The notes under the pieces: generated by a model
Seen by the model: only the letters and a program-made list of their open reading frames with translations
What the model was told of the DNA's origin: nothing
Databases searched by the model: none
NCBI RefSeq assembly: GCF_025822765.1
Contig: NZ_JACKUK010000011.1
Location: forward strand, 119,475-183,474
Source: Mycobacterium barrassiae
Lineage (GTDB): Bacteria > Actinomycetota > Actinomycetes > Mycobacteriales > Mycobacteriaceae
DNA length: 64,000 bases
Reading direction: 5' to 3'
Part shown: piece after piece, positions 32,966-56,513 of the stretch
How positions within the stretch are numbered: position 1 is the first letter of the stretch
Layout of the letters: the number at the start of each line of letters is the position of its first letter
Made by a program: the position numbers and the translations under genes

Positions 32966-33895
32966 TCAGCGTCGGACCGGTTGACTGAGGAAGTCTTCGG
33001 AGGTGACCGCTGCCGGATCGTCGAGACCGATGCCGATCTTGGCCAACAGCACTTCGCGCAGCGTGACGTTGCGGTTGACGTCGATGCCTGCCCGCCGTTG
33101 GGCGCGGCCGATTTCGGTGATGAGGAGCCAAACCAGCAGTCCGGTGAGGACGATGGTGACGACGCCGCCGAGACAGACCAGCGCCGTGGAACTGTTGCCG
33201 TTGAGCTCGGGATCGAAGTTACTGTTCAGCGCGGTGAACGTAGGCCATCCGAGCGCGCCGTTGAGGCCGGCGTAAATGCCGGGAAGCATTGGTATCACTA
33301 TCAATTGACCCCAACCGACCAAGCGATGCCGGAGCAGGAAGAACACGAGCCCCGCGGCCAGTTGCAGGGTGGCGTCGATGGTGTACCACCACGCCGGTGC
33401 ACCGAAGAACAGGAACGGCTGCTGCCCGTAGTACTTGTAGAGCCCGAGTTGGGCGCCCGTGATCTGCAGAGCCGCATCGAACAGCCACGAAAGGCCGTAC
33501 GCGTAGAGGAAGAACTTCGCGCCCTTGCCGAGCACGATCGCACGATAGATGACGTACGCCTGTAGCCCGAAGAAGAACGAGTACCCGAGGACCACGTAGA
33601 GGGGAATGTGGCGCTGGAACAGGTTGACGGTGACGGCGACGTTGTCGCTGGCGAACCAGAGTAGGCCGAGGTAGTCCAGGTAGGGCTCGAGGAGTCCCAT
33701 GCACAACCCACCGAGCAGAAAGACCAGGCCGAGTTTTTCACCGCGCAGAGCGAGCCGGACAACCCAGGTCAGGGCGAGCAGCCAGAAGATGGCACAGATG
33801 ACGGTAAAGGCCAAGCTCCAGCCGAACGGTGCGGACAGATCCGCGGGCGGAACCGGGTACATAGGTGGCGCCTGGCTAAGGATCAGCTCGGTCAT
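32966..33895 (-). CDS. Polytopic membrane protein, unknown (paralogue 1)
   Basis: A 309-residue protein with about 7-8 TM helices (starting about residues 25-50, 55-75, 95-120, 128-150, 165-185, 195-215, 235-265). Conserved polar positions inside the helices include LEPYLDYLG, HIPLYVVLGY, GLYKYYGQQPF and WWYTIDA, which suggests an enzyme or ligand-binding membrane protein rather than a simple transporter. The same landmarks occur in the protein at 34033-34875, so the two are paralogues. I do not recognise the family. The gene is 137 bases downstream of its paralogue, with its own AT-rich upstream region. Confidence 0.75.
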   Translation of the reverse strand: MTELILSQAPPMYPVPPADLSAPFGWSLAFTVICAIFWLLALTWVVRLALRGEKLGLVFLLGGLCMGLLEPYLDYLGLLWFASDNVAVTVNLFQRHIPLYVVLGYSFFFGLQAYVIYRAIVLGKGAKFFLYAYGLSWLFDAALQITGAQLGLYKYYGQQPFLFFGAPAWWYTIDATLQLAAGLVFFLLRHRLVGWGQLIVIPMLPGIYAGLNGALGWPTFTALNSNFDPELNGNSSTALVCLGGVVTIVLTGLLVWLLITEIGRAQRRAGIDVNRNVTLREVLLAKIGIGLDDPAAVTSEDFLSQPVRR

Positions 33896-34011
33896 CGGTC
33901 ACCTCTTGTCTTTATCGGTGCTGCTGGATGTCGTTGCCTTGCAGCGACATCCGAGCATGCGGCGCTATTGGCGGCCATGTGTTGCATATGAAACCAAACT
34001 GCCATGATGCT

Positions 34012-34023
34012 CGCATATATGCG
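34012..34023. promoter_or_regulatory. CGCATATATGCG palindrome
   Basis: A perfect 12-base palindrome in the gap between the two membrane-protein genes, 117-128 bases before the ATG of the downstream one (33895) and just beyond the stop of the upstream one. CATATG-like sequence (GTTGCATATGAAAC) also occurs at about 33981-33994. It shares CGCATAT/ATATGCG with sites at 35096-35138. Candidate site for a nearby Lrp/AsnC regulator. Confidence 0.4.
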
Positions 34024-34032
34024 TATCCGAGA

Positions 34033-34875
34033 TCAATAGTTGGTACGCATCCTGTCAGGCTGTAGCGAAGGCGCCTTGCTTGACCCGACACTTTCCGGTG
34101 ACGCCTGCAAGCGACGGAGCTGGTTTACGACGCGCGGTGCACACTGCGCGACGAAGTGCGTGCACGCCAGGCTGATGCCGATGGAGGCGAGTGCACAGAC
34201 ATACTTCGCCCACATCGGCCAACCCGAATTGAGCGCGGTGGAGATCGGCCAGCCGACGATTCCCGCTGCGGCACCGAGGACTACGGACGGAACAACTAGG
34301 AGGAGCCACAACTGCTGCGCACCACGCAGGACGGGCACCAGGAACACCGCCAGCGTGGCACCCAGCACGATCTGCAGGGCGTCGATGGCCGCCCACCACA
34401 CCACGAATCCGGCAATCTTCATGGGCGGATCGCCGAAGAACTCGAGAATGCCAAGCCAAGCAGAGAGGCCGATCGCGATGAAGTCGATCACCGCGACTAT
34501 GCCGTAAAGGATCCAGATCTTGCGTGCGGTGAACTCCTTCGAGAATGCGCGGTAGAGCACATAGAGCAACCCCCCGCAGAACCACGCGTAGCCGATGGGG
34601 ACGAAGATCGGGACGGCCCGTTCGAACGCCACGAACACCGGGGTCACCTGGTGCGGCGGATATCCGACCAACACGACGTTGTCCAACCAGGGCTCCATCA
34701 ATTCGGAGATTGCGCCGCCGATCAAAAACAGCAGGAGTGCCGGCCCGCGCTTGCGCTCACGCAACGCCCACCACATGAAGAACGCCAACGTGGTAAGCAC
34801 CATCAGCACGGTGTAGGCGATGAGCGCGCCCTGCGGCGCCTCGCGTATCGGCATGTCCGGGACGGTGGGGTTCAT
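34033..34875 (-). CDS. Polytopic membrane protein, unknown (paralogue 2)
   Basis: A 280-residue membrane protein with about 7 TM helices and the same signature positions as the protein at 32966-33895: ISELMEPWLDNV, FERAVPIFVPIGYAWFCGGLLYVLYRAF, FVVWWAAIDALQ and GIVGWPISTALNSGW. Matching blocks sit at similar spacing, which shows descent from one ancestor. The start is ATG 34873-34875, with a strong ribosome-binding site (GGAGGGAA on the coding strand); the frame to 34968 is not needed. Function unknown. It is divergent from the MpaB-type oxygenase gene. Confidence 0.77.
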   Translation of the reverse strand: MNPTVPDMPIREAPQGALIAYTVLMVLTTLAFFMWWALRERKRGPALLLFLIGGAISELMEPWLDNVVLVGYPPHQVTPVFVAFERAVPIFVPIGYAWFCGGLLYVLYRAFSKEFTARKIWILYGIVAVIDFIAIGLSAWLGILEFFGDPPMKIAGFVVWWAAIDALQIVLGATLAVFLVPVLRGAQQLWLLLVVPSVVLGAAAGIVGWPISTALNSGWPMWAKYVCALASIGISLACTHFVAQCAPRVVNQLRRLQASPESVGSSKAPSLQPDRMRTNY

Positions 34876-34942
34876 CGTCTTCCCTCCTCGGCTGGGCTCG
34901 ATGATGGCAGCAGACGAGTGCAGTGTGCGTAGATAATACTGC

Positions 34943-34959
34943 AATTTGGATCGCAAATT
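34943..34959. promoter_or_regulatory. Inverted repeat in divergent promoter
   Basis: AATTTGGATCGCAAATT: 6-base perfect arms, 5-base spacer, 68-84 bases before the membrane-protein ATG. Symmetry and AT-rich arms suit a winged-helix dimer site. Confidence 0.4.
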
Positions 34960-35095
34960 TGTACTCAATGCCGGTTATAGTTAACCAACACGTATCGGCA
35001 CGGCGCCCACCCGTTGACGCGGCGACAGGGGACGTCGGATCACGGGAGGTCACAGGGACTCACGAATGATTGCGGCGTCATTGGCTAGTAAAAGT

Positions 35096-35138
35096 ACGCA
35101 TATTCTTGACTTGGAGGCGCAAGACTAAATAATATGCG
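35096..35138. promoter_or_regulatory. ACGCATATT...AATATGCGT inverted repeat
   Basis: Perfect 9-base arms (35096-35104 and 35130-35138), with inner TCTTG/CAAGA complementarity, about 100 bases before the oxygenase ATG at 35241. The spacing (about three helical turns centre to centre) fits an oligomeric Lrp/AsnC regulator. The motif core recurs at 34012-34023 and, less perfectly, at 54826-54839. Confidence 0.5.
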
Positions 35139-35240
35139 TGTTGAGACCGCTTGCAACCGCTCGTTTGGCAGCATGCAGCGCTCGGGAATCTGCTCTGGTT
35201 ATGTCCCGCCGGTGCGCCGCCTGATGCAGAGAGGCTTGAT

Positions 35241-36350
35241 ATGAAGATCGCGGCCGTATCGACCGACAAGTCGGAGACCCCGCCCGAGGAAGGTGCAACG
35301 GATTTCGCGCTCGGTCCTGGCTCCGTCACCTGGCGCGTGATGATGGACCCGACCGTGTTCATCATCGGTCTTCTGCGTGAGGCGATGCTGTTGACGCTGC
35401 ATCCGGCCTTCGCGGCGGCGGCGGTGGACCACGACAGCTTCAACGACGATCCAGTTGGCAGGTTCAAGCACGTCGCCTGGTACACGTACGCGGCAACCTA
35501 CGGCAGCCCCGATGACGCCGAGCATGTGAGTGGCATCGTGCGTCGGCGCCACGCCCGGATCGTAGGGGTGGAGCCGTTGACGCAGATCCCGTATCGGGCT
35601 GACGCCGAGTACGAGCTGGCGTTGACCCAAGCGATGCTGTCGGACTCATTTCTGGCCACCTATGAACTGTTGCACGGCGAATTGACAAGCGTTGAACGCG
35701 ATCAGTTCTGCATGGAGCAGAAGGTGCCTGCCGCGCTGCTGGGCACCAATCCCGACCATCTGCCGTCGACGTACGGTGAACTCGTCGACTTCATCGCTCA
35801 CGCCAGAAACCGCTTCGCAACGGGGCTTCAGGCGCGGGAGATCCTGTCTCCCTTCGCGACTGGTGAGTATCCGGCAGGGACTGTGATCGGAGATCTGCAT
35901 CCCGTTCTGCGCAGGCCTGCCATGTTCGCACTCCGGGCGTTTGCCGATATGGCGCTGCTGACGATGTCGTGGGAAGAGCGGGAACTGGTAGCCATCAACC
36001 GCCGCCCCAAGCTCGGTTCACAGCTGGCGACCAAGATGGCGCTGCGAGCACTGTCCAAATGGTTCACCGGAGGCCAGGGTCAGGCGGTGTTCGAGAAGTT
36101 CCTCGGTGAGCACATCGCACCGATCTACCGTCGCGGTAAGGCCGCAGATACCGCGCCAGGCTCACGCACTCGCAAAGCCAAATTCGAGGTCCCCGATGCC
36201 GCGTCGTGCCTGGTGAAGGTCGACTACCTGACCAAGAACTGGCCGGGGTCCACAGCGGAGTATGTCCTCGGTAGGGCGGCGCGCGACACCAATCCGCCAC
36301 CGCCGCAATCGATGCCGGTTCTGCGGAGTACGTCGGCCTCGACGTCGTAG
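35241..36350 (+). CDS. MpaB/DUF2236-family oxygenase-like protein
   Basis: A 369-residue protein of the oxygenase MpaB family (DUF2236), relatives of which cleave polyisoprene (Lcp) or the farnesyl chain of mycophenolic acid precursors using haem b. Family features: GPGSVTWRVMMDPTVFIIGLLREAMLLTLHP, HPAFAAAAVDH, RFKHVAWYTYAATYGS, and the HARIVGVEP segment; several conserved His could ligate haem. No signal peptide, so cytoplasmic or membrane-associated. ATG 35241 is chosen for its GAGAGG upstream; the frame from 35151 crosses the promoter. First gene of a rightward oxidative run. Confidence 0.85.
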   Translation: MKIAAVSTDKSETPPEEGATDFALGPGSVTWRVMMDPTVFIIGLLREAMLLTLHPAFAAAAVDHDSFNDDPVGRFKHVAWYTYAATYGSPDDAEHVSGIVRRRHARIVGVEPLTQIPYRADAEYELALTQAMLSDSFLATYELLHGELTSVERDQFCMEQKVPAALLGTNPDHLPSTYGELVDFIAHARNRFATGLQAREILSPFATGEYPAGTVIGDLHPVLRRPAMFALRAFADMALLTMSWEERELVAINRRPKLGSQLATKMALRALSKWFTGGQGQAVFEKFLGEHIAPIYRRGKAADTAPGSRTRKAKFEVPDAASCLVKVDYLTKNWPGSTAEYVLGRAARDTNPPPPQSMPVLRSTSASTS

Positions 36351-36431
36351 TACAGGCTCACGAGCAGCCGATGTACGCGAACGCTCGTTGTTCGCGGGCG
36401 ATTTTCTGACCAGTGAAAGGGAGAGGTCAAC

Positions 36432-38003
36432 GTGGGCGTGCAACGCGTGCTTGAGAACGTGACTCGTCGGCGCCCGAAGTCCGACACGTCGGTGGCGATC
36501 GTCGGATGCGGTTTCGGGGGACTCGCGGCAGCGATCGAACTCAAAAGGTCGGGCATCGACGACATCACGATCTTCGAGCGGGCATCGGCGATAGGTGGGG
36601 TGTGGCGCGACAACACCTATCCCGGGGCAGCGTGTGATGTGCCGTCGCCGATCTATTCGTTCTCATATGCACTGAAGCCCGACTGGTCAGCGCTGTTCGG
36701 GTCGCAGTCGGAAATCCAGCACTACCTGTCCGAAGTGGCGGTCGAGTTCGGCATTCAGCCGATGATTCGTTTCGATTCCGAAGTTGCCACCGCAGATTTC
36801 GACGAGGCCGCCGGCAAGTGGACGGTGACGACAACGGCAGGGGAGTCGGTGACGGTCGACATCTTAATCTTGGCGACAGGCCAGTTGAGCCGGCCCAAAA
36901 TGCCCAACGTGGCCGGATTGGAAAGGTTTCAGGGCGATTCCTTCCACTCGGCGCAGTGGAACCACGATGTGGATCTCACGAACAAGAAGGTTGTCGTCGT
37001 GGGCAGCGGCGCAAGCGCGATTCAGGTTGTGCCGGCCATCGCCGACCGCGTCAAAGACCTCACCGTCGTGCAGCGCTCACCCAACTGGGTGATGTGGAAG
37101 AGCAAGCGAGTGCCGGGTCGGCTGCAGACCGCGCTGATGCGTCGCTTCGGTTGGCTACGCACCCTGCACCACATCGCGTTGTTTCTGGCCTATGAAGTTC
37201 GCTATCCACTGGTAACGCGGGCCGCCGAGCCGGTGCGACGACTCTCTCAGTGGTACCTGATTTTTCGGTTGAAGCGACATGTGAAGGATCCGGCCGAGGT
37301 GGCAGCGGCAATTCCTGATTACCGACTGCTCTGCAATCGCCTGCTGCTGTCTAATGACTGGTATCCGACGATCGGACGAGACCATGTCCACCTCATCGGC
37401 TCGGCGGTCGCGTCCGTCGATGAGAGTGGCGTAATCACCGCCGACGGCCGACATATCGACGCCGACGTCATCGTGTGGTGCACCGGCTTCAAGGCGAGCG
37501 AATTCCTTGCTCCCATCAAGATTCGTGGGCGCGGCGGCGTTGATCTGCACGCGCAGTGGGCGGGTGGCCCCGCGGCGTACCTAGGCATGTCGGTTCCCAA
37601 CTTCCCGAACATGTTCATGCTGTTCGGACCCAACACCAACAGCATCACCAACACGATCGTGTTCCTGTTGGAGCGGCAGGCGTCGTATATCCGCCAGGCG
37701 GTTCAGCACAAGCAACGCGAGCGGCTGGCATCACTCGAGGTGGGCACGGCCACGTACCAGAAGTTTCAAGCCTGGCTGGATGCCAAACTCGACCGCACCG
37801 TTTTCACGGACAACTGCCCGGGCTGGTACACCAACGACCAGGGCAGGGTCACGGCGATGTGGCCCGCCTCGCACCTGGCGTACGCACGAGCGACCAGGCG
37901 CTTCAAACCAGACGAATACGTCGCGCAGCTCCACCCGCCGGCGCCCGCGCTTACGAACAAATCCGCGCAGAAGGTCACCGAACCCGAGGTAGCTACGAAA
38001 TGA
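36432..38003 (+). CDS. Flavin-containing monooxygenase (Baeyer-Villiger type)
   Basis: A 523-residue NAD(P)H/FAD monooxygenase. FAD site VAIVGCGFGGLAAAIELKRSG, the GGVWRDNTYPGAACDVPSPIYSFSY block, and NADP site KVVVVGSGASAIQVVPAI are typical of Baeyer-Villiger monooxygenases that insert oxygen next to a ketone (steroid, cyclic or terpenoid ketones). GTG start at 36432, preceded by GGGAGAGG. It is 81 bases after the MpaB-type gene and so probably cotranscribed. Substrate unknown. Confidence 0.9.
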   Translation: MGVQRVLENVTRRRPKSDTSVAIVGCGFGGLAAAIELKRSGIDDITIFERASAIGGVWRDNTYPGAACDVPSPIYSFSYALKPDWSALFGSQSEIQHYLSEVAVEFGIQPMIRFDSEVATADFDEAAGKWTVTTTAGESVTVDILILATGQLSRPKMPNVAGLERFQGDSFHSAQWNHDVDLTNKKVVVVGSGASAIQVVPAIADRVKDLTVVQRSPNWVMWKSKRVPGRLQTALMRRFGWLRTLHHIALFLAYEVRYPLVTRAAEPVRRLSQWYLIFRLKRHVKDPAEVAAAIPDYRLLCNRLLLSNDWYPTIGRDHVHLIGSAVASVDESGVITADGRHIDADVIVWCTGFKASEFLAPIKIRGRGGVDLHAQWAGGPAAYLGMSVPNFPNMFMLFGPNTNSITNTIVFLLERQASYIRQAVQHKQRERLASLEVGTATYQKFQAWLDAKLDRTVFTDNCPGWYTNDQGRVTAMWPASHLAYARATRRFKPDEYVAQLHPPAPALTNKSAQKVTEPEVATK

Positions 38004-38152
38004 CGGCGGTGGGCCCTGAGTCTCGGTGGCCGAAGTGGTGCGTGGGGTCGGCCGTTGACGGCCCCAGACTTCGACTTGAACCCTATTGTTGTCCACATCA
38101 CTTCTCGTCCCAAGGAAGGTCGACGTGGTCGCTGCCAGTGGCTCATGGTTGA

Positions 38153-38184
38153 ACGAAGTAACCGCTTCACGCGAGCTACTTCGT
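38153..38184. promoter_or_regulatory. ACGAAGTA...TACTTCGT inverted repeat
   Basis: Perfect 8-base arms (38153-38160 and 38177-38184) with a 16-base spacer, 54-85 bases before the ATG of the FAD enzyme at 38238. It could be an operator or a transcript hairpin in the 234-base gap after the monooxygenase gene. Confidence 0.4.
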
Positions 38185-38237
38185 CGAATCACCTTCGCCA
38201 CAATCGAATCGGCGTCGAGGACGGAGCATCGGAGTCG

Positions 38238-39863
38238 ATGATGAACGACCTCGACCAGAAACACTACGACGTGATTGTTGTGGGTGGGGGACACAACGGC
38301 CTAGTCGCGGGCTGTTATCTGGCCAAGGCAGGACTCCGTGTCATCGTGCTGGAGCAGCGTGACTGGCTGGGCGGAATGGCGGCGTCGCGGGCATTCGTTC
38401 CAGACGCCCCGGATCACATTCTGAGTCCAGGAGCCTGGGAGAACGTCTATTTTCGGGCGGCGGGCGTCGGTCGGGAACTCGGACTCGAGCAGTTCGGGCA
38501 TCGTGACCTCGACGCGCACGGGTGGGCCTGGCTCGGTGACAACGGCGAATCCATCGTGCTTCAGGCGGATCTCCGCAAGACGGTCGACGACATCAGGCGC
38601 TTCTCCAGGCGGGATGCCGAGACGTATGCAGAGCTCACTGAGGCTGCCATCAAGATCCTGAAAATCCAGGATGCATATGGACTCTCGCTTCCCAAGCGGC
38701 CGAGCTTGGACACCATCAGCGCGGCGCTGCGGGCCGTTGCCGGAGGACGTCGAGTTCGAGCACTACTGGCTTCCGCCCTGACCGCCACCGCTGCGGACGG
38801 CATCGAGTCGTTGTTTGAATCGGAGGCAGTTCGCGGGATTTTCGCTGGCACCGGAGCAATCCTTGCCCCACTCTCAGTTGACGGCAGCGCCATCGCGCTC
38901 TTGGCGCCTTCGATGATCCACCACAAGGGGGCGGCTCGGCCCGTCGGCGGGATGGGCGGACTGGTGGCCGCCCTGGAACGATGCCTGACAGCGCACGGCG
39001 GCACAGTTCGGCTGTCCAGTGAGGTCGCGACGATTCGGATGCACAGGCGTGGCGGCGTCGTCGAGCTGGTCGACGGTACCGAACTTCACGCTGGCCACGC
39101 CGTTATCGCAGCATGCCCCGTGCACCGCGTTCCCGAGCTCGTGGGTGAGGCACTACCTGCGGAAATCGCTGCGCGGCTTCGAAAGGCTCCGGCCAATGCA
39201 ACCGGTCTTGGCACGTTCACCATCAACGCTGCCCTCTCGGGCCGAATTGAACTGTCGAACCATCAGCCGAACCGGCGAGACGGCGTGGACCTACGCAAGC
39301 CCGCCATCTATATGGGCACCCTCGAAGAAGTTGTCGCCGCAGGCGAACAGTCGGCGCGCGGCGAATTGCCCGATCGGACCACCTTCTGTCTGGGCATACT
39401 CTCTGCCGTCGATCCGAGTCAGGCGCCCGAGGGTCAAGATGTTGTTCAGCTGTACAGCCCGGCCCCGGTGGAACCGGTTGGCGGATGGGACAAGTGGCGG
39501 GGCGAGGCAGAGCGCCGACTAGAGGAGAAGGTGGCCGAAGCTGCACCGGATTTCAAACGTTTGCAGATTGGCACCTTCGTCGAGACGGCCCAAGACCTCG
39601 CCGCGCGAACAGGCGCGGAGAACGGCTGCATCTATCACATCGACAACCTGCCGACTCGCATTGGACCGATCCGTCCCGCCGCAGGCGCCGGTGGTTATCG
39701 CACTGTCATCGATGGGCTGTATCTCGGTTCTGCGAGTTGCCATCCCGGCGGAGGCGTATCCGGCCTGCCCGGAAAGCACTGCGCTAACGTCGTTCTCGTG
39801 GATATGGGCGTTGGCCGACAAAGCGCCTTCAATCGCATCCCGAAACTGAGACGATCCCGCTAG
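38238..39863 (+). CDS. Phytoene-desaturase/PYROXD2-like FAD oxidoreductase
   Basis: A 541-residue flavoprotein of the CrtI/PYROXD2-like amine-oxidase superfamily. The dinucleotide site is VIVVGGGHNGLVAGCYLAKAGLRVIVLEQRD with the following GGMAASRAF, and the C-terminal FAD clamp is GLYLGSASCHPGGGVSGLPGKHCA. These enzymes desaturate or isomerise polyenes and related lipids. Start ATG 38238 (or 38241) is after a GGAG-like site; the frame from 38055 adds implausible sequence. Stop abuts the stop of the convergent AsnC gene at 39864. Third oxidative enzyme of the run. Confidence 0.87.
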   Translation: MMNDLDQKHYDVIVVGGGHNGLVAGCYLAKAGLRVIVLEQRDWLGGMAASRAFVPDAPDHILSPGAWENVYFRAAGVGRELGLEQFGHRDLDAHGWAWLGDNGESIVLQADLRKTVDDIRRFSRRDAETYAELTEAAIKILKIQDAYGLSLPKRPSLDTISAALRAVAGGRRVRALLASALTATAADGIESLFESEAVRGIFAGTGAILAPLSVDGSAIALLAPSMIHHKGAARPVGGMGGLVAALERCLTAHGGTVRLSSEVATIRMHRRGGVVELVDGTELHAGHAVIAACPVHRVPELVGEALPAEIAARLRKAPANATGLGTFTINAALSGRIELSNHQPNRRDGVDLRKPAIYMGTLEEVVAAGEQSARGELPDRTTFCLGILSAVDPSQAPEGQDVVQLYSPAPVEPVGGWDKWRGEAERRLEEKVAEAAPDFKRLQIGTFVETAQDLAARTGAENGCIYHIDNLPTRIGPIRPAAGAGGYRTVIDGLYLGSASCHPGGGVSGLPGKHCANVVLVDMGVGRQSAFNRIPKLRRSR

Positions 39864-40886
39864 TCAGACAATCCAGGTCCACGCGTAGGTGTGCTTGAGA
39901 GTGTCGACTCCGTCGAAGACCTCGATGCTGCGAACTCCCGGCGTGACCGCGATCTCGTCGAGAATGCCGGCAATGAGTGCACTTCGGTCTGGGGCGATCA
40001 ATACGGCGATGAGATCGAAATCGTCTAGTACTCGGGTGACTTGAGCGACATCATCGCGCTTAGCGAGCGCAGTGGCGACATCGGCCACCTTGCCCGGCGC
40101 CGCCTTCACGCCGACGAACGCGTGTGCGCTGATACCCGCTGCGACGATGTCGGAGACCGCCTGGATGCGAAAAACCCTGTCAGCAAGCATTCTCTTGATA
40201 CGTACACGGACGGTGCCCTCGGAGACGCCGAGGTCCGTGGCGATCTGACGATTGCTTCGTCGCGCATTCAATTGAAGTTTTTCGATGATCGCGAGGTCCA
40301 TCTCGTCGACGGTGTCGCTCGGTTGAGCTTCGGGCATGGTGCCGGGGTCGACGTTGAGCAGCGACCACTTTGAGTCGTATTTCAAGACGTCGAGCGCGAT
40401 ACAGCCGTGTACGGCGCTGACGCCCTTGATCTTTGCAAGCGTCGTGTTGAATAGCTCGGCAAGGTGAAGTTTGTCCCGCCCCAGCATCGGCACGATGATG
40501 TCGTAGCGGCCGGTGCAGATCGTGACACCGATAGCCTCGGACAATTCGGCAACTTCGGCGGCTACGGAGTACACCGGTCGGCCAGACACGTTCATCATGG
40601 CGAAGGCGAATTCCCGGTGACCAAACAGCCGAATGTCGGTGATGGCGACCACTCGCAGCGCGCCGGCATCTTCGAGCCGGCGCAACCGGGCGGCAACGGT
40701 CACCTCATTGACGTTCAGTTCGGTTGCGAGGGAACGGTTGCCCTTGCGTCCGTCCAGGCGGAGCTGCTCGATCAGCGCTCGGTCCAGGTGGTCTAATTCT
40801 GGACCGGAACTCGCAGCAGAACTCACTGCCTCAAGGCGCTTGTGCGCAGGCCCGACTGCTTTAGCCACCATCTTTCCCATCTGCAT
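39864..40886 (-). CDS. Double-length Lrp/AsnC regulator 1
   Basis: A 340-residue protein made of two full Lrp/AsnC units: HTH 1 (LDRALIEQLRLDGRKGNRSLATELNVNEVTVAARLRRLE), RAM-type domain 1, HTH 2 (MDLAIIEKLQLNARRSNRQIATDLGVSEGTVRVRIKRM) and RAM-type domain 2 (AHAFVGVKAAPGKVADVATAL). Normal family members are about 150 residues. It is convergent with the FAD enzyme gene. It may respond to a pathway metabolite and control the oxidase run or the mce operon; which is not shown. Confidence 0.9.
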   Translation of the reverse strand: MQMGKMVAKAVGPAHKRLEAVSSAASSGPELDHLDRALIEQLRLDGRKGNRSLATELNVNEVTVAARLRRLEDAGALRVVAITDIRLFGHREFAFAMMNVSGRPVYSVAAEVAELSEAIGVTICTGRYDIIVPMLGRDKLHLAELFNTTLAKIKGVSAVHGCIALDVLKYDSKWSLLNVDPGTMPEAQPSDTVDEMDLAIIEKLQLNARRSNRQIATDLGVSEGTVRVRIKRMLADRVFRIQAVSDIVAAGISAHAFVGVKAAPGKVADVATALAKRDDVAQVTRVLDDFDLIAVLIAPDRSALIAGILDEIAVTPGVRSIEVFDGVDTLKHTYAWTWIV

Positions 40887-41027: not shown

Positions 41028-42092
41028 CTACCGCCCAGTGTTGGCGAGGCGTTTCATGTAGGGACTGAAGAGAACGATGTCGACGAACAGCAGAATCTCT
41101 ATGTTGTGGATTCCGGGGATGGTCTGTACCCGCTCGGCGATCACCTCGACGAGTTCTTCGGGGGCGTTCGCGGTGAGCGCGATACTGAGGTCAGAGTCGC
41201 CGACGCAGACCGCCATGAAGGCAATCTCGTGAATCGCAGCCAGCTCATTCCTGATCTCCATGATGCGAGTTCTGTCGGCTCGAATACTGATAGTGGCGAT
41301 GACGGCAGCGAACCCGAGGGCAACGGGATCAACCATCGCGACGGCTCGAACTAGGTTGGCTTGCACCAGTCGGTTGATTCGGGCGCGAACTGTGCCCTCT
41401 GATGCTCGCTGCGCATGAGCGATCCTGCGATTGGATTGGCGACCATCTTCGATCAGTGCCTCGAGAATGGCCACGTCCAGGTCGTCAAGCTGAACGCGTG
41501 GTGCGGGCAGGCGTAGGAGCGGCACCCCGCGACCCACGAACACGCGGCGTCCGTTCGGAGTGATCACCGTGTCGGTGGCGAGATCCAAACTCATGTGCGC
41601 GATTCCTGCTATCGAAGGCAAGTCATCGTTGGTAAGCCGCTTCAGTTCGGCACGGTCCTGGACCAACAGGTAAGCGACGACGTTGTGGTCGCCAAGGCTC
41701 ACCGCTGCAACGAGGCACTGCGCCAGGTTGCTCACGGCTTCTGCAACCTCTCGAGGAGGTCGGTTGTGCGTTCGTATTCGAGCGATGACCAGCCACTCGA
41801 AACCCGCCTCCTCCCAGTCGATTATGGCGGTGAAATTGATTGCGCCCGATGCGGTGAGATTGCGCAGCCGGCTGCTCACGGCCGACTCGCTGATTCCGAT
41901 GCTTGCTGCCAGCTCGCGATTCGTCATCTTGACGTCGCGGAGCAGCAAATCGATTAGTGCACGGTCGATTTCGTCGGGATCTGCACGGTTCGCGGCATTC
42001 AAATGCACCGAGGACGACACGGCGGCCGGGGGCGCGCTAGTCGCAGGCGAGCGAAGGATGACACCTTCGGACTGACGATCAGGGGCTGCCAT
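41028..42092 (-). CDS. Double-length Lrp/AsnC regulator 2
   Basis: A 354-residue tandem Lrp/AsnC protein: HTH 1 (IDRALIDLLLRDVKMTNRELAASIGISESAVSSRLRNL), domain 1 (ATDTVITPNGRRVFVGRG), HTH 2 (LDVAILEALIEDGRQSNRRIAHAQRASEGTVRARINRL) and domain 2 ending in VDIVLFSPYMKRL. It is clearly paralogous to the regulator at 53602-54672, which shares NGR+.F..RG, the DDLDVAIL.ALI.DGRQS block and the FSPY.KRL end. ATG at 42090-42092; upstream frame to 42182 rejected. It is divergent from the mce operon across about 700 bases. Confidence 0.9.
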   Translation of the reverse strand: MAAPDRQSEGVILRSPATSAPPAAVSSSVHLNAANRADPDEIDRALIDLLLRDVKMTNRELAASIGISESAVSSRLRNLTASGAINFTAIIDWEEAGFEWLVIARIRTHNRPPREVAEAVSNLAQCLVAAVSLGDHNVVAYLLVQDRAELKRLTNDDLPSIAGIAHMSLDLATDTVITPNGRRVFVGRGVPLLRLPAPRVQLDDLDVAILEALIEDGRQSNRRIAHAQRASEGTVRARINRLVQANLVRAVAMVDPVALGFAAVIATISIRADRTRIMEIRNELAAIHEIAFMAVCVGDSDLSIALTANAPEELVEVIAERVQTIPGIHNIEILLFVDIVLFSPYMKRLANTGR

Positions 42093-42798
42093 CGCAGGGT
42101 CATTCGCACCGGTACGTCGGTGTTGCGCCCCGACCGCGGGATGAGCGAGATGTCGGCAATCGTCGCCGCAGGACCCTGCCACTCAATGAGTGTTGACGTG
42201 AGCCAGCAACGTCGGATACCCGCTTATTGACGCTGCAGCTAATCTTCGCTGGACGGGTCGACGTTCCGGGTGTGCACGTCGGAGACGTGTTCTGGTATCC
42301 GCTGAAATCCCAGTCCGGTCCGCTGGCGAAGGGCGCGGACTCGATCTCGGCTCCCCCCGCATGAATGCTGACAACGTGCCCCTTTGGGATGCGCCCCGAC
42401 AGGTCCGAGATCCGCCTCAGCCTCAGTTGACTCGCCGATGGTTCGGCAGTTCGAAGCCGCGGCAAGCCGACTGCCGGCGCCCGTTCCCCACTGGCCGGGG
42501 CAGATTGCGGCCCCACGGCCGCCCAGCTCAGCTGCGTAGACATGTCGACTTCCCTCGTCAGGCGGTGTGGCGTGAGCAGTTCAAGTGATACGAAAGCTAC
42601 CCCGGGCATAGTCATATAGTCCGCAGCAGCTGGGGCATCCTGCTACGCGATCTAAACCCTAACAGCACTCATACGAAAATTTCCGGGGTTTTGGGGCTAG
42701 AACGGGGTGCGATGATGTGGTAGACATCTGACTTGTATCCCGATCAGTGAACTTCCAACAATCGACCGGGCAGGGTGGAGCATTGCGGCAGCACTCAG
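42093..42798. other. Long upstream region of the mce operon
   Basis: About 700 bases between the leftward AsnC gene and the first yrbE gene. Only a weak leftward reading frame (42100-42543) was found. The right-hand third (about 42590-42770) is AT-richer, with ACGAAAATTTCCGG and ATAGTCATATAGT patches, and is the likely promoter zone. I see no strong terminator or riboswitch. Confidence 0.5.
42100..42543 (-). CDS. Possible small protein or gene remnant
   Basis: A 147-residue leftward frame whose ATG (42541-42543) has a good ribosome-binding site (GAGGGAAG on the coding strand). The first 85 residues (to FASGPDWDFSGYQ) could be protein, but the rest is Arg/Ser-rich, and a neighbouring frame offers a neater ending (PEHVSDVHTRNVDPSSED). 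It may be a frameshifted remnant or a chance frame. No family recognised. Confidence 0.25.
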   Translation of the reverse strand: MSTQLSWAAVGPQSAPASGERAPAVGLPRLRTAEPSASQLRLRRISDLSGRIPKGHVVSIHAGGAEIESAPFASGPDWDFSGYQNTSPTCTPGTSTRPAKISCSVNKRVSDVAGSRQHSLSGRVLRRRLPTSRSSRGRGATPTYRCE

Positions 42799-43668
42799 AT
42801 GGCGATCGTGACGACTAGCGTTCGTTCCGGCGGGCAGCTGCGCGGAACAGCGCTTGCTGGTCTCAGCAAAGTCGCCGCGCGGATCGTAGCTATCCCGGTG
42901 CAAAGCGCCGCCACAACCGGGCGCGGCGTGGTCATGGCCGTCTCGGTCCTGCGATACATCGTGGTCGACGCCGTCACGTTTCGTCTGCCCTGGGGGGAGA
43001 CGATTTCCCAGGCGTGGTTCTTGTTGAAGGTGACAGCGACACCGGCGATCCTCATGGCGATCCCGTTCGGTGCGATGGTGTCGGTTCAGACCTCAGGACT
43101 CGTCAACCAGATCGGCGCCAGCTCGCTGGTCGGCGCGGCGAGCGGCGTTGGCGTGATTCGCCAGGGCGCACCGATTACGGCCGGCCTGCTGATGGGCGGT
43201 GCAGCCGCTTCAGCTATTGCGTCCGATCTTGGCGCCCGGCAGATACGCGAAGAGCTCGACGCGATGCGCGTCCTCGGAATCGATCCTGTGCGCAGGCTCG
43301 TTGTGCCGCGCTTCATTGCCCTCATTCTCATCTCGCCGATTCTGTGCACCATCATCATCGCCTCCGCGGTCGCCGCGTCCTATGCACTGGCGTTGACCGT
43401 GAGCGGCGTGACGTCAGGCAGCTTTTGGATGTCGTTCGGGTCCTTCGCCAAGATGACCGACGTCTGGTTCGCCATGGCCAAGGCCGCTACGTTCGCCGCG
43501 ATCGTCGCGATCATTTCCTCGCTTCGAGGTACCGAGGCCAAGGGTGGTCCGCGCGGCGTCGCCGATGCGGTGAATTCTTCCGTGGCGCTCAACGTCGTGG
43601 GCGTAGTGATCGTGAATCTTGCCATCACCCAACTGCAATCGATGTTCTTCCCGATGGCGGTCGCGTGA
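42799..43668 (+). CDS. YrbE/MlaE-family permease A of mce operon
   Basis: A 289-residue permease subunit of a Mce lipid-import ABC system. About five TM helices; the family EExDAxxxxG motif is QIREELDAMRVLGIDPVRRLV, followed by the permease block and SLRGTEAKGGPRGVADAVNSSVA. It pairs with the second YrbE and a general ATPase (MceG) encoded elsewhere. ATG 42799 is favoured over GTG 42775; both have weak ribosome-binding sites. First gene of a 12-gene operon. Stop overlaps the next ATG. Confidence 0.93.
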   Translation: MAIVTTSVRSGGQLRGTALAGLSKVAARIVAIPVQSAATTGRGVVMAVSVLRYIVVDAVTFRLPWGETISQAWFLLKVTATPAILMAIPFGAMVSVQTSGLVNQIGASSLVGAASGVGVIRQGAPITAGLLMGGAAASAIASDLGARQIREELDAMRVLGIDPVRRLVVPRFIALILISPILCTIIIASAVAASYALALTVSGVTSGSFWMSFGSFAKMTDVWFAMAKAATFAAIVAIISSLRGTEAKGGPRGVADAVNSSVALNVVGVVIVNLAITQLQSMFFPMAVA

Positions 43669-44531
43669 TGACGGTGTCTCGGGTCGCCGCGCCGACGCGG
43701 TCCTGGAATCTCGCGAGAACGGTAGCCCGTGTCGTTCGTGAGCCATTCCGGACCGCGGGTCAATGGGCGATGTTCATCGGGCAGACCCTCTGGCTGCTCC
43801 CATGGGTGTTTCGGCGCTACCGCCGGCAGACCTTTCAGGTCATGAACAACCTGGCCTGGGGCCGCGGATCCTTGATCGTCGACGGCGGGGTGATCAGCGT
43901 CCTGATCATCCTCGGCGTGGCCGTGGGTGCCTCGATCGCGATCGAAGCGTTCTCCACGTTGAACATCATTGGGTTTGGCGCTCTGTCCGGCATCGTCGGC
44001 GGTCTTGCAAACGTCCGAGAGATGGCTCCGCTCGTCGCAGGAATTGCGTTCTCAGCTCAAGCGGGTTGTCGGATGACCGCGGAGATCGGGTCCATGCGGA
44101 TCTCGGAGGAAATCGACGCGACCGAAGCGATGGGACTGCGGCCGATACCGTTCGTGGTAGGCACCCGCCTCGTTGGTGCCATGTTGTGCGTCGTGCCGGG
44201 TTTCGTCCTGACGTTGATTCTCAGCTTCTTCGTGTCCGACAGGATGATCCGGGTCTTCTTCAGCCAGCCCGGCGGAACGTACGAACACTACTTCGTCCAG
44301 TTCCTGTCACCCACGGATCTCGCGTATTCGTTGTTGAAGGCCGCTGTCTTCTGCGCGGCAGTGACCATCATTCACTGCTATTACGGATATTTCGCATCGG
44401 GCGGTCCGGTAGGCGTGGGTCAGGCCTCCGGACGTGCGGTACGCGCCAGCCTCGTCGCGATCATGGTCTTGGATTTCCTGCTCACTGTTGCCCTTTGGGG
44501 ACTACGTCCCGAGTTCGTCTTCAAGGGTTAG
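43668..44531 (+). CDS. YrbE/MlaE-family permease B of mce operon
   Basis: A 287-residue second permease. The EExDAxxxxG motif is RISEEIDATEAMGLRPIPFVVGTRL; the preceding GIVGGLANVREMAPLVAGIAFSAQAGCRMTAEIGSM is typical, and the end (YGYFASGGPVGVGQASGRAVRASLVAIMVLDFLLTVALWG) matches YrbEB proteins. ATG 43668 overlaps the yrbEA stop (TGATG). With its partner it forms the inner-membrane channel fed by the Mce tunnel. Confidence 0.94.
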   Translation: MTVSRVAAPTRSWNLARTVARVVREPFRTAGQWAMFIGQTLWLLPWVFRRYRRQTFQVMNNLAWGRGSLIVDGGVISVLIILGVAVGASIAIEAFSTLNIIGFGALSGIVGGLANVREMAPLVAGIAFSAQAGCRMTAEIGSMRISEEIDATEAMGLRPIPFVVGTRLVGAMLCVVPGFVLTLILSFFVSDRMIRVFFSQPGGTYEHYFVQFLSPTDLAYSLLKAAVFCAAVTIIHCYYGYFASGGPVGVGQASGRAVRASLVAIMVLDFLLTVALWGLRPEFVFKG

Positions 44532-45587
44532 GTGATCGACGTGCTGATGCGGAAGACAGCAGATGAGGAGACACGCATCCTCACAGTCGTCGGCGTGGGT
44601 GTCGTTCTCGCGATTGCCGTCGCCATCGCGCTCGTCGTTGCCAATCCCTTCGCAAGCCGCCCAAAGGATCTCATCTCGATCCAGATCGACAGTCCATACG
44701 TCGGTCAAGGTGTCGACACCGGCACGGCTCTGATCATGCACGGCGTCGAAGTGGGGGAGGTCAAGAAGGTTTCGAGCCTGCCCGGTGGCGCCGTGCGCCT
44801 CAACGCCGACCTGCGCACGAGCGCGGCGGCAGGGCTCACCGACACGTTTACCATCGACTTCCGGCCCGCCAACTACTTCGGTGTCACAGGTATCAATATC
44901 TCGAAAGGCCATGGCGGCCAACCCCTGCGTGACGGTATGCAGATCGAGGCGGCCACGCGTGGCAACTACACGCTGCAGACCCTGCTCTCTCGATTGGGTG
45001 ACATCACCGATGGTGTCGTCACCCCCCAGTTGGTCAGCGTCATCGACCGCTCCACGCGATATGTGGACGGGCTGAATCCCTTGGTCGAGACGATGTTGAC
45101 TGTCACCAAGGCCGTCGACAACGTGCAGACGGTGAGTACGGCGCAATTGATGAGAAATGCGGCCGGCCTCAGCGTCGCGTTCCCGGGATTCGTGGACGCT
45201 GCGACGGACGCGGGCGACAGGTTCGACCGTGCCGGTCTGGTCGAGTTCGACCATACGGGTGGTGAAGTGACAGAACAGTTCTGGAAGGATCACTATCTAC
45301 CCACGGTTGAACTTGCCGCATTCGGACTCTTCGCGGCCGTCGGTCGACTGGAATCATCACACGTCGACGACCTTCTCCCAGCCGTCGAAATCGTCAAAAT
45401 CCTCTCCGACACGGTGCCAGGACTCGTCAGGCCCCCGGACATCTCCGAGACCTTGGTCGAGCTTCGGCGGCGCTTCGAGAACATGTACGGGGGGACGCCC
45501 GAGCAGAGGGCGATGCAGGTGCATATCGTGCTCGACAGCCTCCCCGGCGTCGCGGCTCCGCTGGGCGTAATGGGAGCCACGCCATGA
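44532..45587 (+). CDS. Mce family protein, A position
   Basis: A 351-residue Mce protein: N-terminal TM anchor (about 17-37), MCE domain (about 45-120, SIQIDSPYVGQGVDTGTALIMHGVEVGEVKKV), then the helical tail that forms the lipid tunnel. It differs from classical MceA proteins by its short length and a Trp/His segment EQFWKDHYLPTVELAAFGLF. GTG 44532 follows the yrbEB stop directly. One of six different subunits of a hexameric substrate-binding complex. Confidence 0.9.
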   Translation: MIDVLMRKTADEETRILTVVGVGVVLAIAVAIALVVANPFASRPKDLISIQIDSPYVGQGVDTGTALIMHGVEVGEVKKVSSLPGGAVRLNADLRTSAAAGLTDTFTIDFRPANYFGVTGINISKGHGGQPLRDGMQIEAATRGNYTLQTLLSRLGDITDGVVTPQLVSVIDRSTRYVDGLNPLVETMLTVTKAVDNVQTVSTAQLMRNAAGLSVAFPGFVDAATDAGDRFDRAGLVEFDHTGGEVTEQFWKDHYLPTVELAAFGLFAAVGRLESSHVDDLLPAVEIVKILSDTVPGLVRPPDISETLVELRRRFENMYGGTPEQRAMQVHIVLDSLPGVAAPLGVMGATP

Positions 45588-46588
45588 AGCATGTCGGCGA
45601 TCTTTGGAAGTTCGGCCTCAGCGCGGCTGCCGCGCTGGTCCTGTTCATCCTGTTGGCAAATGTGATGCTTCAGCCAGTCTCGAGCGAAACACGGGACTAT
45701 TCCGCCGCTTTCACGGACGTGTCGGGACTTCATCTCGACGCAGATGTACGTGTGATGGGCGTGCGCGTCGGCAAGGTGCAGTCGATCGAGCTCGTCAGGG
45801 AATCCGGGCGAAGCCTGGCAATGGTTGCCTTCACGCTCGATAAGCGATTCGCAGTCACGCCGGAGACCAAATTAGCGGTCAAGTACCAGGCACTGACTGG
45901 TCTTCGTTACATCGACGTGGTCGACCCGTCGGAAGAAGACCCGACGGCACAGGTCGTGACGCATGTGCCGACAGCTATGACGCAACCGTCGCTGGACATC
46001 ACAACCTTGTTCAATGGCCTGCAACCGGTGCTCGCCACTTTGAACCCTGAGGAGATCAACACCTTCACTTCCAACGCAGCCGCCTACCTCGCGGGCGACG
46101 GAAGCGGATTGGGGCCCATGCTCGACAGCATCCGAACACTGACCCAGTTCGTGTCGGATCGCCAGCAGGTCGTGGCCACACTGATGCACAATCTCGACGC
46201 GGTCGCAGCGGAGATGGGCGGTAACTCCCAGAAGTTGGTCCAGGTCATCGACTGGGTCAATCGGCCCTTGGATCAAGCACTTTCGATCATCGACGAGTTT
46301 CGCAAGTCCGATCTCTATGGACCGGGCTTCGCGCTTCCGGTCGCGCGTTTGATGCGCGCGTTCGGTTTGAAACCCGGTGTCGACCTCGATATTGCCCTGG
46401 ACAAGGCTTTCACAAACCTGGACAACGCCATCGAGGCGTTCAAACGGTTCCCTGTCATCTGGGAGGGCATCGACACGCCGGCCATTGCCGAAGGGGAGCC
46501 CCTGACGTGCTCGCGTGGACCCGCCCAGCTGCCGCCGATGATGGACGTTCTCCTCAACGGTCAGAAGGTGGTCATGTGCAATTCCTGA
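45584..46588 (+). CDS. Mce family protein, B position
   Basis: A 334-residue Mce protein. TM anchor about 10-29 (SAAAALVLFILLANVML), MCE domain about 35-110 (SAAFTDVSGLHLDADVRVMGVRVGKVQSIEL, LAVKYQALTGLRYIDV), helical tail, and a C-terminal Cys pair (LTCSRGPAQ ... KVVMCNS) as in other MceB proteins. Coupled to its neighbours by overlaps of 4 and 13 bases. Periplasmic component of the import tunnel. Confidence 0.92.
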   Translation: MKHVGDLWKFGLSAAAALVLFILLANVMLQPVSSETRDYSAAFTDVSGLHLDADVRVMGVRVGKVQSIELVRESGRSLAMVAFTLDKRFAVTPETKLAVKYQALTGLRYIDVVDPSEEDPTAQVVTHVPTAMTQPSLDITTLFNGLQPVLATLNPEEINTFTSNAAAYLAGDGSGLGPMLDSIRTLTQFVSDRQQVVATLMHNLDAVAAEMGGNSQKLVQVIDWVNRPLDQALSIIDEFRKSDLYGPGFALPVARLMRAFGLKPGVDLDIALDKAFTNLDNAIEAFKRFPVIWEGIDTPAIAEGEPLTCSRGPAQLPPMMDVLLNGQKVVMCNS

Positions 46589-47544
46589 AGACGTTGCGAA
46601 ACCCGACGGTCTACGGAGTCGTTGCCCTGGCCGTCGTCACGGCCGTGGCTGTCGTCGTGGCGATGCTGTACATCAGTCCCCCCGGGCGACAGACCGTTGC
46701 CTTCTACACCACCGACGCGTCGTCGGTGCGCCCCGGAGATTCGGTCCGCATTGCCGGGATCGACGTCGGAAAGGTGAAGTCGCTCTCCAAGGAGCCGAAT
46801 CGGGTCAAGGTGGACACAAGTGTGGACGCCAGCGCCTTCGTAGGGGATCAATCTCAAGTCGACGTCCGCATGCTCACCGTCGTCGGCGGCTACTACGTGA
46901 ACATCACGTCCCTGGGCGACCAGCCACTCGGCAGCCGTGTGATTCCCGTCGAACGGGTCACCATGCCGTACAACCTCGTGCAGACGCTGACGGACGCCAC
47001 CAAGATCACCGATCAGGTCGCGCCGAAGCCCATCCGCGAATCGATCGACGAGATCGAGCGCGGGCTCGCCGGCACCAATACGGAAACCGTGTCGGCCGTC
47101 ATCCAAGCGGGCAACAGCCTCGTCGAGACGTTGGACCGCCAGCGCGGACAGATCTCGGCAATTCTCAACCTTTCTGACGAGTACATCGAGAGCTTGGCCA
47201 ACTACAAGGACGGGCTCAAGGTCCTGATCTCGAAAGTCGCCATTCTCGAGCAGACGCTCGTCATCTACGGTGAGGGGTTCGCCGGAGCGCTGCAGGCCCT
47301 GGGCGAGGTCGGTGACTCGCTGCTTCCCCTCGGGCCGTTCTACGACAAGCATCGGCAGCGATTCATCGAGAAGATGCGCAACTGGCAGCAGACATTCCGT
47401 TCTTGGGCGGATCGCAGCGGCCTCGTCGTCCGCAGCCTGCGAAAGGTGAGGAACAAGCTCGATCGCGTGCTCGATGCCCAGAATGCGCGGCCCGAGCTGT
47501 TGGCGACCGACCTGTGTTTTCCCATGCCGGGGAGTCCATGCTGA
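46576..47544 (+). CDS. Mce family protein, C position
   Basis: A 322-residue Mce protein starting at GTG 46576 (VQFLKTLRNPTVYG) inside the end of the B gene. TM anchor about 13-33 (VVALAVVTAVAVVVAMLYI); MCE domain with FYTTDASSVRPGDSVRIAGIDVGKVKSL and MLTVVGGYYVNITSLG; long helical tail. The C terminus is DLCFPMPGSPC. The last bases overlap the next ATG. Periplasmic tunnel subunit. Confidence 0.92.
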   Translation: MQFLKTLRNPTVYGVVALAVVTAVAVVVAMLYISPPGRQTVAFYTTDASSVRPGDSVRIAGIDVGKVKSLSKEPNRVKVDTSVDASAFVGDQSQVDVRMLTVVGGYYVNITSLGDQPLGSRVIPVERVTMPYNLVQTLTDATKITDQVAPKPIRESIDEIERGLAGTNTETVSAVIQAGNSLVETLDRQRGQISAILNLSDEYIESLANYKDGLKVLISKVAILEQTLVIYGEGFAGALQALGEVGDSLLPLGPFYDKHRQRFIEKMRNWQQTFRSWADRSGLVVRSLRKVRNKLDRVLDAQNARPELLATDLCFPMPGSPC

Positions 47545-50571: not shown

Positions 50572-50615
50572 TCCAGCCACCGAAAATGCCGACAGCCCAA
50601 GAAGAGGAGTCCGAA

Positions 50616-51245: not shown

Positions 51246-51285
51246 GCGCATTGTGGTGGCTGGTCTTCGCTGGAAGGAGCGAAAG

Positions 51286-51966: not shown

Positions 51967-51977
51967 TCGGGGATAGC

Positions 51978-52439: not shown

Positions 52440-52822
52440 CCCCGATCCGCCGACGGACCATGAGCTTCGCCGCAGCAGCGTTCATCGCAGTACTCGGTTC
52501 GATGCCCGCCGCGCCTTGGGCCGAAGCGACCGACGACGTGGTCACGTACGAAGTCGTCTCCAACTTCGTCGACCGGGCGAACATCGTCTACATGGACCCG
52601 CAACAGCGGGCGTTCGTTTGGCAGGCGGCACTGCCGTGGCGGATGGATACGGCGGTGCTCGGAGGCACAGATCGCGCCGAAGTTCGAGCGGATTGGCGGC
52701 CGAACGAACGCCCGAACAAATGGGTCACGGTGCGCATACTTCAGGGCGGCAAGGTGCTCTGCCAGAGCACCCTCGACCTCGGAAACGCGACATGTTACGG
52801 CAACACGCCACACATCTTCTAG
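52436..52822 (+). CDS. Exported MmpS-like small protein of mce operon
   Basis: A 128-residue exported protein: signal peptide about 1-30 (MSFAAAAFIAVLGSMPAAPWAEA), then a beta-rich domain (VVTYEVVSNFVDRANIVYMD ... WQAALPWRMDTAVLG ... WVTVRILQGGKVLCQSTLDLGNATCYG). The order YEV - ANI.Y.D - LPW - V.I...G - C resembles the periplasmic domain of MmpS proteins, but without the MmpS membrane anchor being retained. Two Cys likely bond. ATG 52436 overlaps the CAP-like gene stop. Fold assignment is tentative. Confidence 0.6.
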   Translation: MTPIRRRTMSFAAAAFIAVLGSMPAAPWAEATDDVVTYEVVSNFVDRANIVYMDPQQRAFVWQAALPWRMDTAVLGGTDRAEVRADWRPNERPNKWVTVRILQGGKVLCQSTLDLGNATCYGNTPHIF

Positions 52823-56512: not shown

Positions 56513-56513
56513 A

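Follow-up and report, generated by a model that had tools for sequence, protein, structure and literature searches.

Closest described systems

In the mce4/cholesterol catabolic regulon of Actinobacteria, a Mce importer is combined with CoA-ligase, acyl-CoA dehydrogenase (ACAD) and oxygenase genes under the common control of KstR. To our knowledge, mycobacteria bear several mce operons, the cargo of which is largely unknown. In the present work we analyzed a 64,000-nucleotide stretch of the 5.9 Mb genome of Mycobacterium barrassiae (assembly GCF_025822765.1, contig NZ_JACKUK010000011.1, positions 119,475 to 183,474), hereafter called the window, where a mce operon (42898-50571) and the genes of two AsnC-type regulators immediately adjoin those for two paralogous membrane proteins (P0001 and P0002), a MpaB-like protein of the DUF2236 family, a Baeyer-Villiger-type monooxygenase (BVMO) and a CrtO-like flavoprotein (Table 1). 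With roughly even confidence, we take this locus for the core part of an inducible regulon that breaks down a bulky, hydrophobic and unsaturated compound after its import; in this regulon the AveC-like membrane proteins would act as enzymes. As in the mce4/cholesterol regulon, genes for a CoA ligase, an ACAD and oxygenases accompany a Mce importer and appear to be controlled together. However, AsnC-type regulators and the motif TACGCATA are found here in place of KstR, the gene set comprises DUF2236, BVMO, CrtO-like and AveC-like membrane proteins, and no steroid-ring genes were recognized by eye.

Rubber degradation by Lcp/RoxA shares with this locus the DUF2236 domain. In all six cluster DUF2236 proteins, compared in an alignment that holds no Lcp sequence, the Arg and the His of the H..[IV].G motif are kept, which we take for R164 and H198 of Lcp, although their spacing is 30 residues, compared with 34 in Lcp. 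The position of the near-essential Lcp Thr appears to be occupied by V or I in this alignment, and none of the six proteins has an N-terminal secretion signal recognizable by eye. In the available part of the Lcp report, the DUF2236 core is given as R164, T168 and H198, with Thr168 being 99.6% conserved (PMC6311187).

The nearest published case is MmGI-1 of M. massiliense, an island which, in the accessible text of its description, harbors a mce operon, beta-oxidation genes, CoA ligases, a phytoene-dehydrogenase-family gene and a P450 (PMC4263727). Yet it is a different locus, whose content, compared by description only, is closer to the paralogous clusters presented below; the AveC-type membrane family, a DUF2236-BVMO pair and a shared motif are unmentioned in that accessible text (PMC4263727). 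AveC is described as the spiroketal cyclase-dehydratase of avermectin biosynthesis, and structural information on it as lacking, in the available portion of its source (PMC13303154). The indel markers listed in a taxonomic study include a "spirocyclase AveC family protein" as well as a DUF2236 protein, with no function stated in the excerpt at hand (PMC5819568). Our literature search, mainly of the open literature and with longer result lists covered in part, led to no description of the gene set presented here.

Conservation and linkage of the gene set

The preliminary description of this DNA, made from its letters alone, had grouped five open reading frames into one oxidative module. All five were confirmed at their positions and strands, and the DUF2236/MpaB-type, BVMO-type and phytoene-desaturase-like identities are borne out by Pfam and NCBIfam; the mce operon, the two AsnC-type regulators and a third one beyond the mce operon had not been mentioned. 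It had also held that the module would fall if its genes did not co-occur in related genomes. A P0001 orthologue was found in six genomes, namely the window's, G039, M. pinniadriaticum (L070, counted as one with G018), Mycobacterium sp. AT1, gw790 and bog759. In 6/6 of them MpaB lies next to the BVMO gene and is accompanied by the CrtO-like gene, mce genes and two AsnC-type regulators, in rearranged orders, so that co-occurrence stands for P0001, MpaB-BVMO and CrtO; P0002 is less constant, being present in 3/6 in the stretches read. Orthology in these loci rests on BLAST; gene calling relied on a home-made program based on codon usage, with which starts and small genes are uncertain and the CRTO, BVMO and amine-oxidase (AMOX) labels leak into each other. 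The module occupies one contig in five genomes and two in bog759. In M. pinniadriaticum, MpaB, BVMO and CrtO are established across the mce operon from P0001. Since gene order and orientation vary among the six genomes, the linkage is more than the synteny of close strains.

Further genes recur in the stretches read, to which these counts refer: a ligase with an aldehyde dehydrogenase (ALDH) in 4/6 genomes, a 379-aa ACAD in 5/6, a short-chain dehydrogenase/reductase (SDR) in 4/6 and an RPE65-type enzyme in 3/6, together with up to seven paralogues of the membrane pair in the relatives. Pfam confirmed the ligase, ALDH, Polyketide_cyc2, ACAD, SDR, RPE65 and AveC_like assignments on examples. Orthologues of P0001 at 77% identity or more were detected in only three of 148 genomes of the genus (the window's, G039 and G018), and four of the 59 family loci found in a scan of named genomes are P0001 orthologues (76-85%). 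A 7-kb stretch of a Solirubrobacterales contig (L071) contains a P0001 orthologue (48%) together with an AsnC-type gene (49%), a CrtO-like gene (61%), Polyketide_cyc2 and further family members, which group in the tree beside different mycobacterial subfamilies (97% SH-aLRT for P0001's). The tree was built by a quick method and has some long branches. Together, this set and the tree suggest that P0001, AsnC and CrtO are the oldest core and that P0001 and P0002 represent old, separate subfamilies. A recent tandem duplication was considered for the pair and rejected, as its two members fall in different, old subfamilies.

The association with CrtO was also examined statistically across the 148 genomes. 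A strong CrtO-like gene (E below 1e-50) was present in at least 14 of them, 13 of those 14 having the membrane family compared with 22 of the 148 overall (Fisher, 4e-12). Twenty-five of the strong CrtO-like genes (at least 49 in number) have a family gene no more than 10 kb away, where 0.67 were expected; no more than nine candidates were scored per genome, so that the CrtO counts are lower bounds. Weaker CrtO relatives, as shown in family-bearing genomes, served as a control, and 0/15 are within 50 kb of a family gene. This control leaves out two fragmentary rows of G045 (C1:4677961, approximately 1 kb from a family gene, and C1:4492978, approximately 11 kb), with which the count becomes 2/17 within 20 kb. 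In the named family loci, a CRTO-labelled gene is present in 34/59 of the stretches at hand, where flavoprotein labels may leak.

Promoter motif and proposed regulon

An inverted repeat in the divergent promoter of P0002 and MpaB, reported by the preliminary description, is indeed present, and its core is ACGCATA. We counted 7-mers in the six loci after CGCATAT had been seen in both window promoters. Among the 2240 7-mers with four A/T, ACGCATA is the commonest in intergenic DNA (27 matches, in 12/12 pieces of the six loci) and TACGCAT, listed as its complement, ranks second (25 intergenic matches); 10 further ACGCATA matches are inside genes. ACGCATA is located upstream of P0001 in 6/6 genomes and of MpaB in 5/6 (AT1 excepted), and also upstream of CrtO in three genomes, of the RPE65-type gene in one, of AveC_like genes in two and of other family genes in AT1 and gw790. 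The longer TACGCATA likewise precedes P0001 in 6/6 genomes, and all 20 of its matches in the six orthologous loci are intergenic. The 67 other family loci (1.26 Mb) contain eight matches, two of them intergenic, one being upstream of a family pair in G039. Orthologous promoters share descent, which makes the motif counts interdependent and the binomial value of 7e-18 an overstatement.

The window's genome has 24 TACGCATA sites, eight of which are intergenic by our gene calls. Of these eight, two are at the locus itself (P0001 and P0002/MpaB), one lies upstream of two paired family genes on contig C23, and one is at an AveC_like gene paired with a molybdopterin-oxidoreductase gene on C9. If 2 kb are taken on either side of each of the nine genes (family and AveC_like), 0.15 sites are expected. 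Genes at the remote loci resemble cluster genes of AT1, gw790 or bog759 (family genes 83% and 46%, AveC_like 79%, molybdopterin oxidoreductase 78%). That dispersed members keep TACGCATA is the strongest evidence that these genes work together, and the common motif supports the shared control that had been proposed.

The membrane proteins and their probable relationship to AveC

P0001 and P0002 were rightly described as a paralogous membrane pair, with 34% identity over 212 aa (E-value = 2e-22) and the motif E-P-[Y/W]-L-D in both. The AlphaFold2 model of P0001 has seven transmembrane (TM) helices (pLDDT 90.8), and Foldseek gave no significant match for it, an absence which is not evidence of a new fold. 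Neither protein has a Pfam match above cut-off or an NCBIfam match, and no solved structure was convincingly similar in sequence searches with P0001, with its family profile or with an AveC_like query. The first family profile was built from the 33 loci in hand, with L024 (partial) and L031 (in-frame stop) dropped; the later alignment has 65 members, comprising P0001, P0002 and 63 of the 93 family calls in L067-L125 (215-370 aa, less than 90% mutual identity), and yielded no convincing Pfam match, 14 families being matched by any member at E<=0.1. Family matches occur in 22 of the 148 genus genomes, with up to 12 per genome, and in 7/197 genomes of a class-wide sample, the window's own counted. 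The 59 loci of the named-genome scan extend the family to Actinomycetota and Pseudomonadota, and it can be densely packed, with seven members in approximately 50 kb of gw790 and six in approximately 41 kb of AT1.

At the level of profiles, the family can be related to AveC. Comparison with AveC_like (PF17198, 26 sequences) by hhalign gave a probability of 95.3% (E-value = 2e-8) and comparison with a 57-sequence AVEC set 96.4%, whereas the controls remained at 2.6% (COX3), 0.3% (YrbE), 0.2% (256-aa TM family), 0.1% (COX4), 1.0% (reversed profile) and at most 61.6% (20 block shuffles), so that the homology exceeds the membrane-protein background. In the AveC_like alignment the conserved positions are in register: EP..D stands with DP..N, D...E with D...E, and a conserved Pro precedes the next helix. 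Moreover, an AVEC-labelled gene, Pfam-checked on examples, is present in the stretch at hand of 28/59 named family loci. Both families are polytopic membrane proteins; they differ in that the context of this family looks catabolic while that of AveC is polyketide synthesis, and identity in the profile alignment is 14%. Judged from these profiles, the membrane family appears to be made up of distant relatives of the avermectin-making enzyme AveC. The earlier suggestion that the pair are unrecognized enzymes fits this remote relationship, as far as a putative activity can.

Oxidative enzymes and the mce operon

The MpaB orthologues are 92% identical in G039 and 71-75% in the four more distant genomes; the DUF2236 protein matched nothing convincing in a sequence search against solved structures. 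Type I BVMOs are characterized by the fingerprint FxGxxxHxxxW[P/D]. Its FxGxxxHxxxW part was found in 6/6 proteins scanned (five cluster orthologues, one from each genome except gw790, and a paralogue from gw790), the last residue being N instead of P/D in the window and G039 and D in the other four. Both GxGxx[G/A] motifs are present in the five orthologues and one in the gw790 paralogue. The nearest solved relatives of the BVMO are steroid (1e-71) and phenylacetone monooxygenases. The CrtO-like protein, whose orthologues have 92% identity in G039, 76-80% in the four more distant genomes and 61% in Solirubrobacterales, scores 219.1 bits on NF045689, far below the equivalog cut-off of 1000, so it should not be enlisted as a beta-carotene ketolase CrtO. 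Its relationship to solved phytoene dehydrogenase is remote (5e-11). The RPE65-type enzyme of the relatives is closer to lignostilbene dioxygenases (6e-55) than to an entry named "carotenoid oxygenase" (1e-46) or to apocarotenoid-15,15'-oxygenase (9e-27).

The mce operon has the gene order of a Mce importer, two YrbE/MlaE permeases followed by six Mce/MlaD genes. The first Mce gene (44532-45587) lacks a MlaD match at E<=1e-5 and was assigned by its position and its similarity to equally placed genes in relatives. Since this operon adjoins the cluster, a hydrophobic substrate, as in the preliminary description, is supported, by inference from the Mce4 cargo. Among the AsnC-type regulators, it is the neighboring one (39864-40886) whose orthologue (49%) accompanies P0001 and CrtO in Solirubrobacterales.

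Proposed function and alternatives

In the proposed regulon, the mce operon would bring the compound to the inner membrane. There P0001, P0002, their paralogues and AveC_like proteins could act as membrane-embedded acid-base enzymes, which would isomerize, dehydrate or cyclize a carbonyl/hydroxyl intermediate as AveC does. Their acidic site (E70 and D74, plus E144 in most relatives) is predicted by charge-based topology to lie close to the outer face of the membrane. The CrtO-like flavoenzyme would introduce or shift double bonds by flavin-dependent desaturation or oxidation, and the DUF2236 haem protein, together with the RPE65-type dioxygenase in some relatives, would split a C=C bond to carbonyls. 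BVMO may then convert a ketone to an ester or lactone, and the ALDH, acyl-CoA ligase and ACAD that adjoin these genes in relatives could feed the pieces into beta-oxidation. The AsnC-type regulators would govern the set through the TACGCATA sites. This reading builds on the conserved gene set, the conserved promoter motif, the family assignments, the confident predicted fold and the charge-based topology, whereas we infer the order of steps, the substrate and the import by mce. As for the substrate, our guess is an isoprenoid (terpenoid, carotenoid or polyprenoid) first and a steroid-like compound second; isoprenoid, steroid or stilbenoid types are all possible. Tentatively, and with clearly less than even confidence, the family and AveC_like might form a large unrecognized superfamily of intramembrane lipid-converting enzymes, ancient subfamilies of which (up to seven copies per locus) would carry out successive steps in the membrane, before or while Mce hands the substrate on, in an undescribed, regulon-bound catabolic pathway.

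Several observations weigh against the proposed regulon. In the window's genome, the ligase, ALDH, SDR, ACAD and RPE65-type genes are missing between BVMO and CrtO; the cluster ligase has only distant relatives elsewhere (33-35%) and two RPE65-family genes are present only on other contigs. With ligase, ALDH and RPE65-type genes not at the locus, this strain may possess a shortened or scattered form of the pathway. On the regulatory side, the assignment of AsnC-type proteins as regulators of TACGCATA is a guess from position, and no TACGCATA occurs in the Solirubrobacterales locus, nor is there an exact copy near the other three AveC_like copies of the window's genome (at most 32% identical to the AveC proteins of the cluster) or on contig C26, which bears a fifth family copy. 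Genome-wide, TACGCATA has 24 sites compared with 41 for its backward control, so its value rests on placement and not on number; a longer candidate operator, TACGCATANNTTGAC (up to two mismatches), was rejected, having no site at this locus in the window's genome and 13 matches compared with 34 for the backward control. Regarding AveC, one of 20 block-shuffled AveC profiles reached 61.6% (the remaining ones 25.5% or less), P0001 and P0002 are unmatched by PF17198 at E<=1 and thus do not reach its curated cut-off (26.6 bits), and PF17198 is absent among the families matched by any of the 65 members at E<=0.1. Finally, residue 144 is E in 60/65 members, while it is Q in P0001 orthologues and I in P0002, which suggests that the pair may have lost part of the acidic site. 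Instead of being enzymes, the two proteins might bind, hand over or sense the substrate together with the Mce importer, in an Insig-like manner; we consider this rather unlikely.

The isoprenoid-derived compound of the preliminary description is conjectural: the nearest solved relatives of the BVMO and of the RPE65-type enzyme do not point to isoprenoids, and the DUF2236 proteins appear to have V or I at the place of the Lcp Thr. The same type of regulon could serve a steroid, a triterpenoid or a stilbenoid/aromatic substrate instead of a linear isoprenoid or carotenoid, an explanation that overlaps our own and that we take seriously, if at a little under even confidence. The relatives of these two enzymes favor it, as do the Rieske ring-hydroxylating oxygenase of paralogous clusters and the known import of steroids by Mce4, stated in the available part of its source (PMC6498646). 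However, the genes that are constant in all six genomes are of the DUF2236 and CrtO types, no steroid-ring gene was recognized in the stretches read, where no targeted search was made, and the nearest relatives in such broad families predict the substrate poorly. AveC, CrtO and Polyketide_cyc2 are family names known from biosynthesis, and the locus might accordingly make or tailor a membrane lipid or a terpenoid; the presence of a mce importer, an AMP-ligase, ALDH and ACADs makes this improbable, and no polyketide synthase, terpene synthase or prenyltransferase was recognized in the six loci by eye and by Pfam on selected genes. That the genes are chance neighbors from unrelated operons is hardly credible: the stretches read lack P0002 in three of the six genomes, gene order varies and close P0001 orthologues are rare in the genus sample, but the linkage in all six genomes, the CrtO statistics and the common promoter motif contradict it.

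In the proposed catabolic regulon, a mce operon is accompanied by a complete set of oxidative genes as well as by candidate regulators and a cis-motif, and consequently its cargo can be sought by induction. The tie to AveC offers a catalytic idea for a family without a Pfam name and would place AveC in a wider group of enzymes.

Locus layout and paralogous clusters

The features of the locus are listed in Table 1. Two ACAD genes (30505-32878) converge on P0001 in the window and G039 and do not adjoin it in the other four genomes; they are probably outside the module.

Table 1. Coordinates (window positions) of the cluster, its candidate control sites and its neighbors
Feature	Position	Strand	Remarks
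P0001, 7-TM membrane protein	32966..33895	-	Remote AveC relative; conserved E70-P-x-x-D74; orthologues in 6 mycobacterial genomes
Perfect palindrome CGCATATATGCG	34011..34022	.	Overlaps the TACGCATA site upstream of P0001
P0002, anciently diverged paralogue (separate subfamily)	34033..34875	-	Orthologue in 3/6 genomes, stretches read
Inverted repeat tACGCATAT...ATATGCGT	35095..35139 (arms 35096-35107 / 35128-35139, 92%)	.	P0002/MpaB divergent promoter; candidate operator
MpaB-like DUF2236 putative haem oxygenase	35241..36350	+	PF09995 (DUF2236/MPAB_Lcp_cat), 116.8 bits, cut-off 23
Type I Baeyer-Villiger-type monooxygenase (FMO/BVMO-like)	36432..38003	+	Fingerprint FQGDSFHSAQWN, residues 166-177
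CrtO/phytoene-desaturase-type FAD oxidoreductase (amine-oxidase type)	38241..39863	+	Pfam, NCBIfam
Double-domain Lrp/AsnC-type regulator	39864..40886	-	PF13404/PF01037
Second Lrp/AsnC-type regulator	41028..42182	-	Pfam
Two YrbE/MlaE permeases, mce operon	42898..44531	+	PF02405, 2/2
Six Mce-type substrate-binding genes	44532..50571	+	PF02470 MlaD at E<=1e-5 in 5/6
Small proteins, Mce-associated- or secreted-looking (by eye)	50586..52822	+	Several with homologues beside relatives' mce operons
Third Lrp/AsnC-type regulator	53602..54669	-	Just beyond the mce operon
256-aa TM protein, orphan CoxIII-like and CoxIV-like	55137..56801	+	5/5 genomes with stretch read

The CoxIII/CoxIV/256-aa TM triple was found in the window, L055, L067, L068 and L069, the corresponding stretch of G039 being outside the data. 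Such orphan genes recur in family/CrtO clusters, and no catalytic oxidase subunit was recognized beside them by eye, a targeted search not having been made. Paralogous loci have DUF7064, APH-type kinase, CoxIII/CoxIV, mce, Rieske and enoyl-CoA hydratase genes as recurring partners; among the frequent ones are DUF7064/7065 and APH-type kinase-like proteins (e.g., L065:6373-7428 and L065:7442-8551). In the gammaproteobacterium Pseudomaricurvus alcaniphilus (L114), a gene that resembles TonB receptors by eye is flanked by a group comprising two members of the family and genes of the CoxIII, DUF7064, CrtO and APH types, with no Mce gene among the genes called. All 12 family matches of G045, two of which may be pieces of one gene, are located within 440 kb (C1, approximately 4.38-4.82 Mb; L062, L063 and L064), perhaps a large catabolic island, and the same genome has 17 AveC_like matches. 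Finally, a further intergenic TACGCATA of the window's genome, near base 2066 of L150 (G000:C16:10765), lies between glyoxalase-like and acetyl-CoA-acetyltransferase-like genes (by eye) and is a possible extra member of the regulon.

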